From positions 1 through 39,980 of the IMG/VR virus record IMGVR_UViG_3300046660_000097: DNA of 39,980 nucleotides; one strand, written 5' to 3'. This DNA comes from a virus. The notes under the pieces were generated by a model. The model was not told the origin of the DNA and ran no database searches. It was given only the letters and a program-made list of their open reading frames with translations. Shown in pieces: positions 2,251 to 23,335 of the stretch (positions are counted from its first letter, which is position 1; each line of letters starts with the position of its first letter). The position numbers and the translations under genes are program-made.

Positions 2251-2961
2251 TCAGTGAAATCCGCCAGACCAGAACACCCGGCCCAGTACCGCAAGCTCCT
2301 GTTCCTCGATCTGCTGCGCGGTGTATTCCTCGTCTTGATGCTCGTCGCGGTTGAAGCTGCGCAACCTTAGTCCACCACCAGGGAGGCGGTAGAGCTGTTT
2401 AACGCGAAGTTGGCCGGCGTGGTTTATTGCGTACATATCGCCATCGACCACTTTGGTGCTTGTCGTATCGATCGCGACCGTTGAGCCGTTGCGCAACACC
2501 GGCTCCATGCTATTACCTGCAACCGTCACGCACCTAGCGCCGGCTGGGTCAACACCCTTATTCCTCAGGCTGATACGGCCAAACCGAAGCTTTCGGTTTG
2601 ACGATTCTTCGACAGCTGTCCGACCGCTACCAGCCGACAGCTCGACCTCTTTTAGAAATGGCACGTACACCTCATCCACATCCAGAGGCGTTTCGTCATC
2701 CCAGACGTCGATTGGCCCAAGCAACTCCGCATTGGGTTCGATCACTGCGGTCCTTGCAGGCAAATCGCCAGTGATAAGAAACCCAACTGTAGTTGATAAA
2801 GCGGCGGCTATTTCGTCCAGCCGACGCCCGCGGGGTACGGACACCTCAGATTCCCACTTCTGGACGGCCTGAGGCGTGACTGAGAGCCGGCGCGCCAGCT
2901 CCGACCTGTTCAGCCCTGCGTGTTCTCGTTTTTGCGCTATGCGCTTACCTAATGTGCTCAT
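2251..2961 (-). CDS. CI-type phage repressor, self-cleaving (XRE HTH plus S24 peptidase)
   Basis: This is the lysogeny repressor, 236 aa. Residues 3-58 are an XRE helix-turn-helix (SELARRLSVTPQAVQKWESE). The C-terminal half is a LexA/UmuD-type S24 peptidase with the Ser nucleophile at 151 (GNSMEP) and the Lys base near 188 (LRVKQL). The Ala110-Gly111 bond (ELSAGSG) is the likely RecA-stimulated autocleavage site, so prophage induction should respond to the SOS system. The start at 2961 fits the HTH; no Shine-Dalgarno precedes it, and a CATTAT sequence only a few bases upstream could be a -10 box for a leaderless mRNA. It is divergent from the Cro-like gene and binds the region between them by inference. 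Confidence 0.95.
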   Translation of the reverse strand: MSTLGKRIAQKREHAGLNRSELARRLSVTPQAVQKWESEVSVPRGRRLDEIAAALSTTVGFLITGDLPARTAVIEPNAELLGPIDVWDDETPLDVDEVYVPFLKEVELSAGSGRTAVEESSNRKLRFGRISLRNKGVDPAGARCVTVAGNSMEPVLRNGSTVAIDTTSTKVVDGDMYAINHAGQLRVKQLYRLPGGGLRLRSFNRDEHQDEEYTAQQIEEQELAVLGRVFWSGGFH

Positions 2962-2982
2962 CAGCAAATAATGCAACCCGTA

Positions 2983-3060
2983 GTTGTAAATTTCACTGTG
3001 AATGTAAGTTGTAGTTTTTCCGCGACTGCGATAACCTCTGGTTGTAATTGTAACTTTGAG
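2983..3060. promoter_or_regulatory. Operator/promoter region between repressor and Cro-like gene
   Basis: This intergenic stretch contains GTTGTAAATTT (2983-2993), a TTCACTGTGAA palindrome (2992-3002), AAGTTGTAG (3006-3014) and GGTTGTAATTGTAACTTTGAG (3040-3060). The GTTGTAA/TTACAAC word is repeated here and in the left cluster at 1846-1905, as expected for OR and OL of a lambda-type switch. TTGTAG (3009-3014) and TAACCT, spaced 17 bases, are a weak candidate for the rightward promoter. Exact operator limits cannot be set by eye. Confidence 0.65.
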
Positions 3061-3067
3061 GTTCAAA

Positions 3068-3280
3068 ATGGAAGAGCTACCTATCTGTAAGGCGGTCAAG
3101 GCTCTTGGCCGTGGCGGCCAGTCCGCCCTTGCTCGCCTCCTCAAGGTCACTCCTCAGGCGGTGCAGAAAATGTGCGCCTCCGGGCGTGTCCCTGCCGAGC
3201 GAGTTCTCGAAATCGAAAAGGCTACTGGCGTTTCTCGCCATGAGCTTCGTCCCGACATCTACCCACCTATCGCTGCATAA
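3068..3280 (+). CDS. Cro-like YdaS-family DNA-binding protein
   Basis: This is the first rightward early gene, 70 aa, with ATG 3068 preceded by GAGG at a good distance. The upstream TTG at 3056 is rejected. The helix-turn-helix covers residues 15-45 (SALARLLKVTPQAVQKMCAS), followed by GRVPAERVLEIEKATGVSR and an Arg-Pro-Asp tail typical of the YdaS/Cro family of prophage regulators. Its place opposite the repressor gene makes it the functional Cro. It should bind the shared operators at 2983-3060 and favour lytic growth. Confidence 0.88.
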   Translation: MEELPICKAVKALGRGGQSALARLLKVTPQAVQKMCASGRVPAERVLEIEKATGVSRHELRPDIYPPIAA

Positions 3281-3309
3281 CCCCTTCGTACAACAAAGGA
3301 GCCTCACCA

Positions 3310-3504
3310 ATGGCAGATGAACCACGGAAAAACAAAAAGCACGTCAACCAACTCAAGGTCCTGCTCGACGACGAGTTCGACGGCCTTCTGGACTATGCAG
3401 CCCAAATTCATGGGACCAAGAAGGGTGTACTCGCCCGAGAGGTTTTGAAGTCTTGGCTCCATGACCTTGTTGGCAAGTCTATCCGCGATGACCGTGCGGC
3501 CTGA
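3310..3504 (+). CDS. Ribbon-helix-helix (CopG/Arc-like) regulator, 64 aa
   Basis: The gene has a good AAGGAG nine bases before ATG 3310. The pattern is that of a ribbon-helix-helix protein: a short beta strand (residues 12-18, NQLKVLL), a helix (DEFDGLLDYAAQI), then a turn and a second helix (KGVLAREVLKSWLHDLV). Such dimers bind short tandem direct repeats. Three 11-bp tandem repeats lie just downstream (3512-3543) and could be its own operator. It would regulate the early operon; the role is inferred from fold and position. Confidence 0.75.
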   Translation: MADEPRKNKKHVNQLKVLLDDEFDGLLDYAAQIHGTKKGVLAREVLKSWLHDLVGKSIRDDRAA

Positions 3505-3511
3505 AGCGAAA

Positions 3512-3543
3512 CAGTAGGGACCCAGTAGGGACCCGGTAAGGAC
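3512..3543 (+). repeat. Three tandem 11-bp direct repeats
   Basis: AGTAGGGACCC at 3512-3522 is repeated exactly at 3523-3533 and again imperfectly as GGTAAGGACC(G) from 3534. The array lies between the RHH gene and the next small gene, overlapping the latter's leader. An 11-bp period is one helical turn, which suits cooperative binding of RHH dimers. An RNA antitermination site is an alternative. Confidence 0.7.
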
Positions 3544-3553
3544 CGGAGGCCGT

Positions 3554-3748
3554 ATGCCAGATGAGAAGGGCATGGAGCTTGGAGAGTTGCTTGATCCGGA
3601 AGAGTTGAAATTGCTGGAGGCTGAAGCGGCGAAACGGGGGATGTCACCCGAGGAGCTGGCAAAGCTTGGAATCCAGCAGGAATTGACCAGAAGGACAAGG
3701 CCAAGAGCTATGACAGGAACGATTCAAGCGTTCCGAAAGAATACCTAA
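3554..3748 (+). CDS. Small hypothetical early protein, 64 aa
   Basis: ATG 3554 follows GGAGG at about five bases. The product is charged and helical. It contains two DPEEL/SPEELAKLG-type acidic helices, a basic middle (TRRTRPRAM) and a basic tail. It could be a small DNA-binding protein of the RHH or CII-like sort, but no motif is decisive. It lies between the immunity region and the replication genes, the usual place of cII-like regulators. Function unknown. Confidence 0.65.
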   Translation: MPDEKGMELGELLDPEELKLLEAEAAKRGMSPEELAKLGIQQELTRRTRPRAMTGTIQAFRKNT

Positions 3749-3760
3749 ATCACACGCACA

Positions 3761-3785
3761 AAAAAGCCACCGGGCAAGGGTGGCT
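3761..3785. terminator. Hairpin between immunity and replication genes
   Basis: AGCCACC (3765-3771) pairs with GGTGGCT (3779-3785) around a 7-base loop. On the plus strand the following bases (CTTCC) are a poor T-tract. On the minus strand it is followed by six T. It could act as a weak rightward attenuator of the tR1 kind, or stop leftward transcripts before they enter the repressor region. Confidence 0.5.
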
Positions 3786-3816
3786 CTTCCTACAGCAAAG
3801 TTCAGCGAGATCAATT

Positions 3817-4773
3817 ATGGCAGCACTACATGCGATAAGCAAAGGTCGGTTGAGGATGCAACTCACTGAGTTAGCCGGAAGCGCCGTTGCCGTGTATCCG
3901 GCATTCAGGCGTGTATTAGGCCTGAGCGCTTCGGTGGCTCAGTTTCTGTCCCAGGCTGTCTACTGGACTGAGAAGACCAATGATGGCTGGTTCTACAAGA
4001 CCGAGTCAGAGTGGGAAGAGGAGATCGGGCTGTCGAACAAAGAAGTTCGCACCGCTCGCCGCTGCCTTGCTCAGATCCAGCTCCTGTCCGAGGTGCGCAA
4101 GGGCGTTCCTGCCAAGATGCATTTTCGTATAGATACCGAGCTGTTGCTGGGTTATCTGTCAGGCGAAACATCACTTCCAGTCCTGCCCAAAGAGAACAAC
4201 AAGTCCTGCCCAAAAGGCACAACTGGTTCTTCCCTTGCAGCACAACTTGTCCTGCCTGAAGGGTATGACAAGTGCGGCCCTAACGGCACAACTATTACAG
4301 AGATTACACAGAAGACTACAGCAGAGACTACGGCAGTGGTGCTCGCTCCAGCTTCGCCGAAGCGTGCCGCGAAAAAAATAGACGCCGCAGAGTCTGATCG
4401 GCAAGAAGCATGCCGTGAGATCTGGTCTTCCTACTCCGCCGCATACCAAGCGCGCTACCAAGCCGCCCCCGTACGCAATGCCAAGGTAAACCGCAACGTT
4501 GTTGACCTCTGGAAGCGTCTTGGCTCGGAAGCCGCTGCGGTAGCCGAATTCTACGTTGGCATCAACGACTCCTACTTGATCCGCAATTGCCACGACCTCG
4601 GTTCCCTGCTGGCCAAGGCAGAGTCGTATCGCACCCAGTGGGCGACCAATCGCCAGATGAACGCCACAACTGCCCAGCAGATTGAGCGCAAACAGGCAAA
4701 CCTTCAGGCCGGGCAAGAAGCCGCCCAGCGAATCATGAGCCGCGAAGGGAGGAAGGAAAATGAATTCCTCTAA
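3817..4773 (+). CDS. Phage replication initiator, lambda O-like role
   Basis: This 318-aa protein has an N-terminal winged-helix domain (residues about 25-105, with SASVAQFLSQAVYW, LSNKEVRTARRCLAQ and MHFRIDTELL) like that of phage replication and DnaD/DnaT-type proteins. A low-complexity Thr/Lys/Gly linker (about 120-190) and a helical C-terminal domain follow. The linker is encoded by five iterons (4180-4292), so the gene contains its own probable origin, as lambda O does. It should bind the iterons and recruit the helicase loader encoded just downstream, whose start overlaps this gene by 14 bases. The start at 3817 lacks a strong ribosome site; an in-frame ATG at 3856 is a less likely alternative. 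Exact family not named. Confidence 0.82.
   Translation: MAALHAISKGRLRMQLTELAGSAVAVYPAFRRVLGLSASVAQFLSQAVYWTEKTNDGWFYKTESEWEEEIGLSNKEVRTARRCLAQIQLLSEVRKGVPAKMHFRIDTELLLGYLSGETSLPVLPKENNKSCPKGTTGSSLAAQLVLPEGYDKCGPNGTTITEITQKTTAETTAVVLAPASPKRAAKKIDAAESDRQEACREIWSSYSAAYQARYQAAPVRNAKVNRNVVDLWKRLGSEAAAVAEFYVGINDSYLIRNCHDLGSLLAKAESYRTQWATNRQMNATTAQQIERKQANLQAGQEAAQRIMSREGRKENEFL
4180..4292 (+). repeat. Five iterons at 23-bp spacing, probable replication origin
   Basis: Copies begin at 4180, 4203, 4226, 4249 and 4272, exactly 23 bases apart. The pattern is GTCCTGCCC, four variable bases, then GGCACAAC. The copy at 4203 fits it completely. Those at 4180, 4249 and 4272 differ at several positions, and the one at 4226 keeps about two thirds of it. 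TGCC and GGCA inside the unit form a small dyad, as in lambda iterons. The period is not a multiple of three, so the repeat is a DNA feature rather than a protein repeat. An A-rich stretch (about 4290-4330) follows and could be the unwinding element. Confidence 0.75.
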
Positions 4774-5566
4774 TCGCATGACTACCGAACAAATCGCCAG
4801 GCTTGCGCTGGCTATCGCTGCCACGGCTGAAGTACTCGGCCAGACAATCACTACTGATGCCGCCGAGATGATGGCTGACGACCTCGCTGACTATCCGGCT
4901 GATGTCATCGGCTCGTCGCTCAAGGCGTGCCGCCGCGAACTGACAGGCAAGCTGACTTTGGCCGCGATCCTTCAGCGCATTCAGGCCGCTGACGGTCGCC
5001 CAGGCAAGGATGAGGCGTGGTCAATCGCACTTGAAGCGAGCGACGAGAGCGCAACTGTGGTGATGACTGCTGAAATCTTGCAGGCCATGACCGCCGCACA
5101 GCCTGTACTCGACCTTGGCGATAAGATCGGCGCGCGAATGGCCTTCATGAGCGCCTACGAGCGCCTTGTGACATCGGCCAGAGCCGAGGCAATTCCAGTC
5201 ACTTGGAGCGTATCCCTCGGGTTCGATTCTGCGCGCCGCGTGACCGCCATCGAATCGGCTGTGCGGATGCAGCTCATCAGCCAGCAGGCCGGCGCTCAAT
5301 ACCTGTCCGACCTGCGCATCGCTCCGATCACCAGCGACGGCCAAGCAATCGCCGGGCTGATCACGGGGAAGGTCGTGCAGCCATCGCCGAAGCTGCGGGA
5401 AAAGCTCGCCGAAGTCCGCTCAATCGTCACCGCCGCCAAGGCTCGCCAAGACCGCGAAAAACTCAAGCAGGCCCAAGCCAACCGGGTCGACACATACCTG
5501 CGCAAACGCCAAGCACGGGCTGCGATTGCTGCGCTTCAGGATCAGGAGAACTCCAATGGCCGATGA
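4760..5566 (+). CDS. Putative replication protein in helicase-loader position, 268 aa
   Basis: The start at 4760 follows GGAGGAAGG and overlaps the initiator gene by 14 bases, so the two are translationally coupled. The N-terminal 75 residues are helical, with the MADDLADYPADVIGSSLKAC pattern seen in phage and plasmid proteins that act with helicases. The middle is Ala-rich. The C-terminal 60 residues are a strongly charged Lys/Arg/Gln/Ala helix. No Walker motif is present, so it is not a DnaC-type ATPase. By position it is the lambda P counterpart, which loads the host DnaB helicase at the iterons; this is inference. Confidence 0.75.
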   Translation: MNSSNRMTTEQIARLALAIAATAEVLGQTITTDAAEMMADDLADYPADVIGSSLKACRRELTGKLTLAAILQRIQAADGRPGKDEAWSIALEASDESATVVMTAEILQAMTAAQPVLDLGDKIGARMAFMSAYERLVTSARAEAIPVTWSVSLGFDSARRVTAIESAVRMQLISQQAGAQYLSDLRIAPITSDGQAIAGLITGKVVQPSPKLREKLAEVRSIVTAAKARQDREKLKQAQANRVDTYLRKRQARAAIAALQDQENSNGR

Positions 5567-5774
5567 CATCGACATCGCGCAAGAGCGCATCGAGGCCGAC
5601 ATGGCCCACCGAATTGCTACGCGCACCGTTTACACCGGCATCAGCGCCTTTGAGTGCGAGGAGTGCTCAGAGGAGATCCCTGAAGGCCGTCGCAATGCGG
5701 TCAAGGGCGTGAAGCTGTGCGTGGGTTGTGCTGAGCGGGTGGCGCTGGTGAAGCAGGGAGTGCGCAGAGCATGA
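5556..5774 (+). CDS. TraR/DksA-family zinc-finger protein, 72 aa
   Basis: ATG 5556 follows AGGAGA and overlaps the previous gene by 11 bases. The protein has an N-terminal helix with a DIDIAQERIEADMAHRI pattern and a C4 zinc finger with Cys34, Cys37, Cys55 and Cys58 (CEEC and CVGC), followed by a short basic tail. Size and motif match the short TraR branch of the DksA family. TraR binds the secondary channel of RNA polymerase and mimics DksA with ppGpp. The phage copy probably shifts host transcription during lytic growth. Confidence 0.9.
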   Translation: MADDIDIAQERIEADMAHRIATRTVYTGISAFECEECSEEIPEGRRNAVKGVKLCVGCAERVALVKQGVRRA

Positions 5775-22360: not shown

Positions 22361-23335
22361 ATGGCCAAAAACGCTTGGCGCGCCTCTGCTGGCCGAATCG
22401 CCACGGTCGACTTCTACACCTTCAGGCCTGAGTCTGGGGCTGTGGAGGCGATGCTTGCGGGGTACTGGCAGGCAGGCAGCGATGCGGCGGCGACTGGCGC
22501 TGTTGCGGCGGTTGGGCTTTCCGTTCTGGCCGCGACAACTTCGGCTGATGCAGCAACCAGCGCTTCTATCGACCTGCTATCACTTGATGCTCCATCCGGA
22601 TCTGCGTCTGCTTCGACAGTGGTAAATGGCTCTGCCAGCGCCTCTGTATCGTCAGTAGCGCTGTCTGCACCAGTATCGTCTGCCACCGGTGGCGCTTCAC
22701 GGTCTGCGGCTACTACTGCGATCACAGCGAGCGCTCCGGCAGCATCCGGAACCGGTTCTGCTACGAAGTCTGCCGCGACAAGCCTTGTAACACTGTCCGC
22801 GCCGGCCTCAACCGGTTCCGGGGCCGCCTCAGCGCCGGCCAGTCTCGCTAGCATCACCCAGGCCGCACCGAACGCTTCGGCATCTGGCAGCACCTCGGTC
22901 AACGGTAATGCTGCTGGCGCGCTCGCTCTTGTCGTGTTGAGCACCACCGGTGCAATCGCTCTGGGTGGCGCATCTAGGGCTGCAAATCTCGCATTTTTGG
23001 GGATTACAGCACCAGCAGGATCAGCGCTCCCGGCAGCGAACGCGAACGGTGCGCCAGTGCCGATCCTATTCACGGCGCCGGCGACCACAGCAGCAGGATC
23101 AGCAGCAACGTTCGGCACCATCGACGAAGTGTCATTTGACCCGTCGCAGGGCTCGGCGGCTGGCACTGATGCCAATGCGCAGCAGTATCCGCTGGCAGGC
23201 TTGACGCAGGTCTATCCGCTCGACGGTTTGACCCAGCAGATGCCGCTCGCCGGACAGTCGCAGGACTACCCGCTGGCCGGACAACAGAACACTCGCCCGC
23301 TCGCCGGGCAAACACAAACTTTCCCGTTGGGGTAG
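22361..23335 (+). CDS. Repetitive virion protein with 22- and 9-residue repeats
   Basis: This 324-aa protein starts at ATG 22361 after GGGTGA. After a 50-residue head, residues about 54-259 consist of nine consecutive Ala/Ser/Gly-rich units. Most are 22 residues and begin SAP, TAP or similar; two are 26. Residues 277-324 then hold five 9-residue units of the form PLAGxxQxY (277, 286, 295, 304, 313) and a final PLG. The first array looks like a beta-solenoid stalk, the second like an extended tip. It lies between head accessory and neck genes, so a head fibre or decoration fibre is likely. No known family. Confidence 0.8.
   Translation: MAKNAWRASAGRIATVDFYTFRPESGAVEAMLAGYWQAGSDAAATGAVAAVGLSVLAATTSADAATSASIDLLSLDAPSGSASASTVVNGSASASVSSVALSAPVSSATGGASRSAATTAITASAPAASGTGSATKSAATSLVTLSAPASTGSGAASAPASLASITQAAPNASASGSTSVNGNAAGALALVVLSTTGAIALGGASRAANLAFLGITAPAGSALPAANANGAPVPILFTAPATTAAGSAATFGTIDEVSFDPSQGSAAGTDANAQQYPLAGLTQVYPLDGLTQQMPLAGQSQDYPLAGQQNTRPLAGQTQTFPLG

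Follow-up and report, generated by a model that had tools for sequence, protein, structure and literature searches.

Initiator gene and genomic neighbourhood

The gene order in the stretch of DNA that was analysed (39,980 nt of IMG/VR record IMGVR_UViG_3300046660_000097, a Pseudomonas-type phage, hereafter the window) is lambda-like: it contains a CI-type S24 repressor (2251-3150, opposite strand), a replication initiator (3817..4773, + strand, 318 aa), a gene at the position of lambda P (4760..5566, + strand), a NinB/Orf homologue and NinG. The gene at the P position matched PHROG 6028 (function unassigned), and the Marinobacter gene at the corresponding place is annotated as DUF6475. Of the contigs retrieved in a search for relatives, only L032 and L033 were close; a third match was weak.

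The initiator has relatives L001-L009 and matched PHROGs 9773, 391, 428, 678 and 270, all of which concern replication initiation: phrog_9773 ('replication initiation O-like') was matched over residues 16-172, i.e. the N-domain and linker (E 2.8e-27), and phrog_391 covers residues 181-302. No model of Pfam or NCBIfam was matched, including those of a RepA_N domain and PF04492 (Phage_rep_O, the lambda O family), the latter of which is matched by lambda O itself, and there was no significant sequence match in the PDB. An hhalign comparison between the N-domain alignment (A4) and lambda O gave an E-value of 0.33, i.e. no detectable similarity.

The N-terminal domain (3817..4161, + strand) is predicted by AlphaFold to have a winged-helix pattern (H-H-H-E-E, pLDDT 81), and is presumed to read the iterons on the basis of the model, Foldseek and the covariation of residues 62-110 with the iterons described below. 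The best PDB neighbours found with Foldseek were winged-helix proteins, including N-domains of plasmid initiators (4pql, 4pt7, 4pta, 5kbj) and DnaD (2v79), all with E > 0.008; the similarity to the first four, which we take to be staphylococcal RepA entries, was weak (E 0.01-0.04). The C-terminal helical domain (4390..4770, + strand; alignment A2, model pLDDT 87) also occurs in phages with other N-domains, residues 191-318 being 69-70% identical to the equivalents in LPPA33 and LESphi3, and a fold search with this domain against the PDB yielded no match. Two other repeats were noticed in the window: the 11-bp sequence CAGTAGGGACC, present in three tandem copies ahead of the initiator gene (3512-3544), and a 27-bp tandem repeat in codon step (23177-23317) that is probably a protein repeat.

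A 23-bp iteron array inside the initiator gene

Between the parts that encode the N- and C-domain, the initiator coding sequence contains tandem sites. The initial annotation had described these as five 23-bp units that start at 4180, 4203, 4226, 4249 and 4272, and this description held: the iterons occupy 4180..4202, 4203..4225, 4226..4248, 4249..4271 and 4272..4294 (+ strand), the last one continuing into a CTATTACAGAGA junction. The mean pairwise identity of the five copies (0.665) was the highest of all periods between 12 and 40 bp, both within the gene and within the whole 40-kb window, and was reached in 0 of 2000 synonymous-codon shuffles (max. 0.600) and 0 of 2000 Markov shuffles (max. 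0.525). Across relatives the unit reads GTTSTGCC-N5-GGCACAAC, an imperfect palindrome (inverted repeat); the TGCC/GGCA dyad reported before is present but too short a rendering of the full unit. The middle copy, said to be the most diverged, has 7 mismatches to the consensus among its 23 positions by direct count, but copy 4 has as many, and copy 3 is near consensus in relatives L002-L004.

The sites are maintained as DNA and not as protein, as had been proposed. When codons for the same amino acid were compared between six close relatives, 39.9% of them differed in the N-domain and 39.4% did so in the C-domain; the figure dropped to 8.4% for the iterons and to 7.3% for the adjoining opening tract (see below). 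Since amino-acid change in the iterons (20.5%) and the opening tract (26.3%) is as fast as in the C-domain (23.5%), the pattern is the opposite of that expected from selection on the protein.

We then collected a family of 71 genes, nearly all retrieved by the N-domain alone, which was reduced to 53 non-redundant ones and searched for repeats of any period from 16 to 32 bp, the significance being determined against synonymous shuffles. A significant repeat was found in 50 of the 53 homologues, with a period of 23 bp in 46, 24 bp in three (in one of which, L007, the repeat found is the opening tract and not the iterons) and 22 bp in one. The iteron letters varied (TGCGG/CCGCA, GGCG/CGCC, GTGGGG/CCC, GTTCTTCT/AGAACAAC and others), and in 26 of the 53 homologues the iterons are followed by a YTATTACARAGA junction. 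The homologues thus hold the DNA period while linker protein and iteron sequence change; conservation of the protein without the period, which had been named as contrary evidence, is not what was observed. We hold the reading of the array as the iterons of a replication origin with high confidence.

The putative opening repeat in the window

The sequence downstream of iteron 5 reads CTATTACAGAGATTACACAGAAGACTACAGCAGAGACTACGG and contains repeats of CAGAGANTAC that are spaced 10-12 bp apart. Of the three CAGAGAYTAC units, two are perfect (starting at 4298 and 4322) and the one between them, at 4310, is degenerate: units 1 (CAGAGATTAC, 4298..4307) and 3 (CAGAGACTAC, 4322..4331) match the family unit at 10/10 positions and unit 2 (AGAAGACTAC, 4310..4319), 12 bp after unit 1, at 7/10 (all + strand). 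According to a nearest-neighbour scan, the segment 4287..4331 constitutes the least stable 45-bp duplex of the gene. The position and instability of this candidate agree with the earlier proposal of an A-rich flank as unwinding element, but the tract contains only 56% A+T, against 73% in lambda, and is itself a repeat, a feature absent from that proposal. DnaA boxes with at most one mismatch were absent from 3300-5600.

Conservation of the putative opening repeat across phages

Within the 53-gene set, GAGANTAC occurs 121 times, where 23.9 copies are expected from synonymous shuffles, and is found in 51 genes with a spacing of mostly 12 bp, and also 10 and 11 bp. The survey of units was seeded on GAGANTAC; the codon test described below was not. 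Extension of the arrays yielded 166 units, which show conservation at positions 1-6 and 8-10 but not at position 7; the CAGAGA half is conserved as strongly as the TAC half.

For the codon test the tract was defined by the protein alone (102 units in 44 genes). The glutamate codon was GAG in 102 of the 102 units, and the codon that follows ended in T in 99 of 102, against 29% elsewhere (p 3e-47). The middle base of this second codon is variable, so that it encodes Thr, Ile, Asn or Ser. The GAG/wobble-T rule is kept in AT-rich as well as GC-rich genes, and units spaced at 10 or 11 bp encode a scrambled peptide (ETTQRLPETT, NTRDYTETT) yet retain their DNA sequence. That the opening repeat functions at the DNA level is close to certain.

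The two-unit DNA pattern was recovered in at least 120 viral contig stretches. Among the two-unit matches it was located within one long reading frame at 80 of the 80 loci examined, at some 380-960 nt from the 5' end of the frame for loci not cut by a contig edge. A 52-nt consensus matched 111 phage records, in most cases within a gene whose annotation is that of a replication protein; the hosts are Acinetobacter, Staphylococcus, Klebsiella, Vibrio, Pseudomonas, Burkholderia, Synechococcus, Bacillus and Geobacillus. An N-domain of the window type is encoded by Staphylococcus phage 37, Synechococcus phage Yong-L1-251, Vibrio X29 and BcepIL02; that of Bacillus PM1, Acinetobacter IME-AB2 and Lactobacillus mv4 shows only remote similarity (hhalign E 0.0036, 2e-4 and 3e-5, respectively), each with its own iterons. 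For the N-domain of Geobacillus PT9.1 no similarity was found by blastp. The C-terminal domains of the carriers differ (Phg_2220_C, DnaB_2 and, on a Marinobacter plasmid, a lambda-O-like one), and the unit is absent from MD8, LESphi3, LPPA33, phiAH14a, Medea1 and Pavtok, which combine related C-domains with other N-domains. The element thus tracks the N-domain superfamily.

Some of the records show features of their own. The initiators with other N-domains (L250, L251, L038, L041, L254) contain repeats of their own: these are 17 bp long and CACCCCCGCAG-like in MD8, LESphi3 and LPPA33, and 22 bp long in phiAH14a and Medea1, where they are followed by 12-bp repeats of a different sequence (AATCAGGATACC). 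The record of Xanthomonas phage SU1 (OR842880, L253) has 32% GC and a Staphylococcus-phage-like initiator, and its host label may be wrong.

Covariation of the iterons with the N-domain

The similarity between iterons correlated with the identity of N-domain residues 62-110 (34 genes; Mantel r 0.43, p 0.0005), and continued to do so when residues 25-62 were controlled for (partial r 0.31; 0.03 for the reverse), although the effects of shared ancestry and linkage are only partly removed in this test. Two of the homologues, L005 and L009, share with the window gene the first 65 residues (bar one or two), the C-domain and the opening tract, and differ from it in the recognition half of the N-domain and in the iterons (GTTCTTCT-N5-AGAACAAC). 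They are natural recombinants in which recognition half and iterons were swapped. The iteron sequence changes with the recognition half of the N-domain, and the opening repeat stays constant. The invariance of the N-domain and that of the repeat could both reflect a third partner. This natural variation offers material for working out how the winged helix recognises its sites.

Plasmid copies and HNH domains

The opening element was also found on Bacillus plasmid pBSG3 and in five related plasmid records, with no annotated gene beneath it. On pBSG3 (L255, 720-841) iterons of the PM1 type are followed by three opening repeats; the region is 76% identical to the PM1 initiator gene over ~170 bp, the matching frame is interrupted by stop codons, and upstream of the array there is no initiator N-domain. 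Judged by this comparison, the element of these small plasmids is a captured phage origin, of which the DNA was retained without the protein; such plasmids might parasitise or hinder the phage.

In several initiators an in-frame HNH nuclease domain separates the winged-helix domain from the iterons: L005 (2588-3859), L009, L008, L060, L065, L066, L076, L084, L095 and L113, with a GC content ranging from 38% to 63%. Pfam PF01844 was matched in L005 and L113, and the residues DH...P...GG.H...N...H..CN are conserved, L066 seemingly being degenerate. The domain recalls the origin-directed nuclease Odn of phage ICP1 (PMC8263062); it might serve self-nicking or an attack on rival origins, or be a homing relic. 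The HNH-bearing initiator of L008 changes frame at 3400-3430, where a stop and a start codon overlap (TGATG). Its winged-helix domain may thus be produced as one protein and its HNH and C-terminal domains as another, but a sequencing error could give the same picture.

A model for origin opening and its alternatives

Taken together, the data very probably describe the replication origin of a lambda-like temperate phage, located where the phage's own initiator gene encodes the linker, which would operate in four steps. The N-terminal winged-helix domain, probably as a dimer, would bind each of the 23-bp palindromic iterons, a step well supported by the observations above. Binding to the phased array would strain and open the adjoining weak duplex (~4287-4336). 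The exposed CAGAGANTAC repeats would then be captured on one strand in a sequence-specific manner, most likely by the same initiator and in analogy to RK2 TrfA with its 13-mers; on capture by the initiator itself we lean only slightly towards yes. The C-terminal domain and the downstream gene would finally recruit the helicase.

An origin with iterons inside the initiator gene is a known architecture; the invariant opening repeat looks new. Our estimate is evenly balanced on the broader proposal that the CAGAGANTAC arrays represent an undescribed sequence-specific strand-capture element, used in common by 'LSQ..YW' initiators with a winged helix from phages that infect Gram-negative, Gram-positive and cyanobacterial hosts, in which the iterons diversify with the recognition helix and the opening code is invariant: a variable address followed by a universal opening word. 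No description of such a repeat was encountered in the open literature that was searched, and a search for the literal 10-mer retrieved only irrelevant papers; as mainly open papers were covered, 'undescribed' is provisional.

The exposed repeat might instead be read by a conserved host protein, which we regard as possible and rather unlikely. The candidates are DnaA, for which YTA would provide a [G/A]AT DnaA-trio on the other strand, a DnaD-like loader (TnnT motifs) and primase (CTA/TTA/CTG starts). A host reader would suit an opening element that is identical in phages of very different hosts; moreover, the commonest bases at the variable YTA position yield exactly both trio forms, and the B. 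subtilis DnaD recognition element 5'-CTACTATTACTTCTACTA-3', situated opposite the DnaA-trios, resembles CTATTAC...CTAC (PMC10201434). However, neither trios nor priming sites need the CAGAGA half, which is as conserved as the TAC half, the 10- and 11-bp spacings break a 3-nt register, the 3300-5600 region is devoid of the DnaA boxes searched for, and the unit is missing from MD8, LESphi3, LPPA33, phiAH14a and Medea1, which have related C-domains and overlapping hosts and differ in the N-domain.

A further alternative, in which the origin is located at another place and the iterons chiefly let the initiator regulate the early operon as an operator would, is very improbable: initiators often autoregulate and a palindromic site within the early operon could serve that end, but the array is situated in the middle of the gene, at a distance from the start codon and adjoining the weakest duplex of the gene, in an arrangement that matches the proven lambda origin feature by feature. 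The notion that a Thr/Glu-rich flexible linker and repetitive peptide are kept for protein reasons, to which the E-T/I-T frame of 150 of the 166 units would conform, was rejected on the frozen wobble bases (GAG in 102/102, T in 99/102) next to varying amino-acid-changing ones and on the low synonymous change, and has a negligible probability, 23 bp not being a multiple of the codon and pBSG3 carrying an intact array in a frame with stop codons.

The findings bear on the manner in which iteron initiators open DNA strands, which a review calls 'still an open question' (PMC5043065). An invariant 10-mer beside varying iterons provides a simple handle on strand opening and helicase loading, as it can be recoded without changing the protein. 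The repeat can also be used as a DNA signature to locate origins in many uncharacterised phages and in plasmids that have acquired such origins.

Comparison with known systems

The initial annotation had likened the locus to the lambda ori in gene O, with an iteron sequence of its own, and the comparison stands: an O-like initiator gene contains an array followed by the weakest duplex of the gene. In the origins of lambda and the Stx-phages (L036), likewise positioned mid-initiator gene with the weak duplex downstream, four to six palindromic iterons of ~18-19 bp are spaced at 20-24 bp and end in a CTATTACA junction; for lambda O, iterons, an A/T-rich tract and binding of single-stranded DNA have been described (PMC7466680, PMC5043065). 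The window differs in its iteron sequence and in an N-domain without detectable similarity to lambda O, and the A/T-rich tract of lambda has no clear CAGAGANTAC array.

The RepA_N replicons, including PLE of Vibrio and those with staphylococcal RepA, have a DNA-binding N-domain that covaries with the iterons and a conserved C-domain (PMC8263062). The window-type initiators share this covariation, but in structure the resemblance is no more than weak (E 0.01-0.04); PLE has its origin in an intergenic region, whereas that of the window would be inside the initiator gene. In B. subtilis, the DnaA-trios and the DnaD recognition element are strand-specific short motifs in the unwinding region (PMC10201434), the letters of which are partly similar to those of the window repeat; these are motifs of 3-4 nt, in contrast to a conserved 10-mer at 10-12 bp spacing.

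For the proposed mode of opening, RK2 oriV is a precedent: a single strand of its 13-mers is bound in a sequence-specific manner by the winged-helix initiator TrfA (PMC4081077), and iterons are combined with short repeats in the unwinding element, as in the candidate element of the window. RK2 has T-rich 13-mers that are confined to a single plasmid origin, whereas the window-type 10-mer is common to many unrelated replicons.
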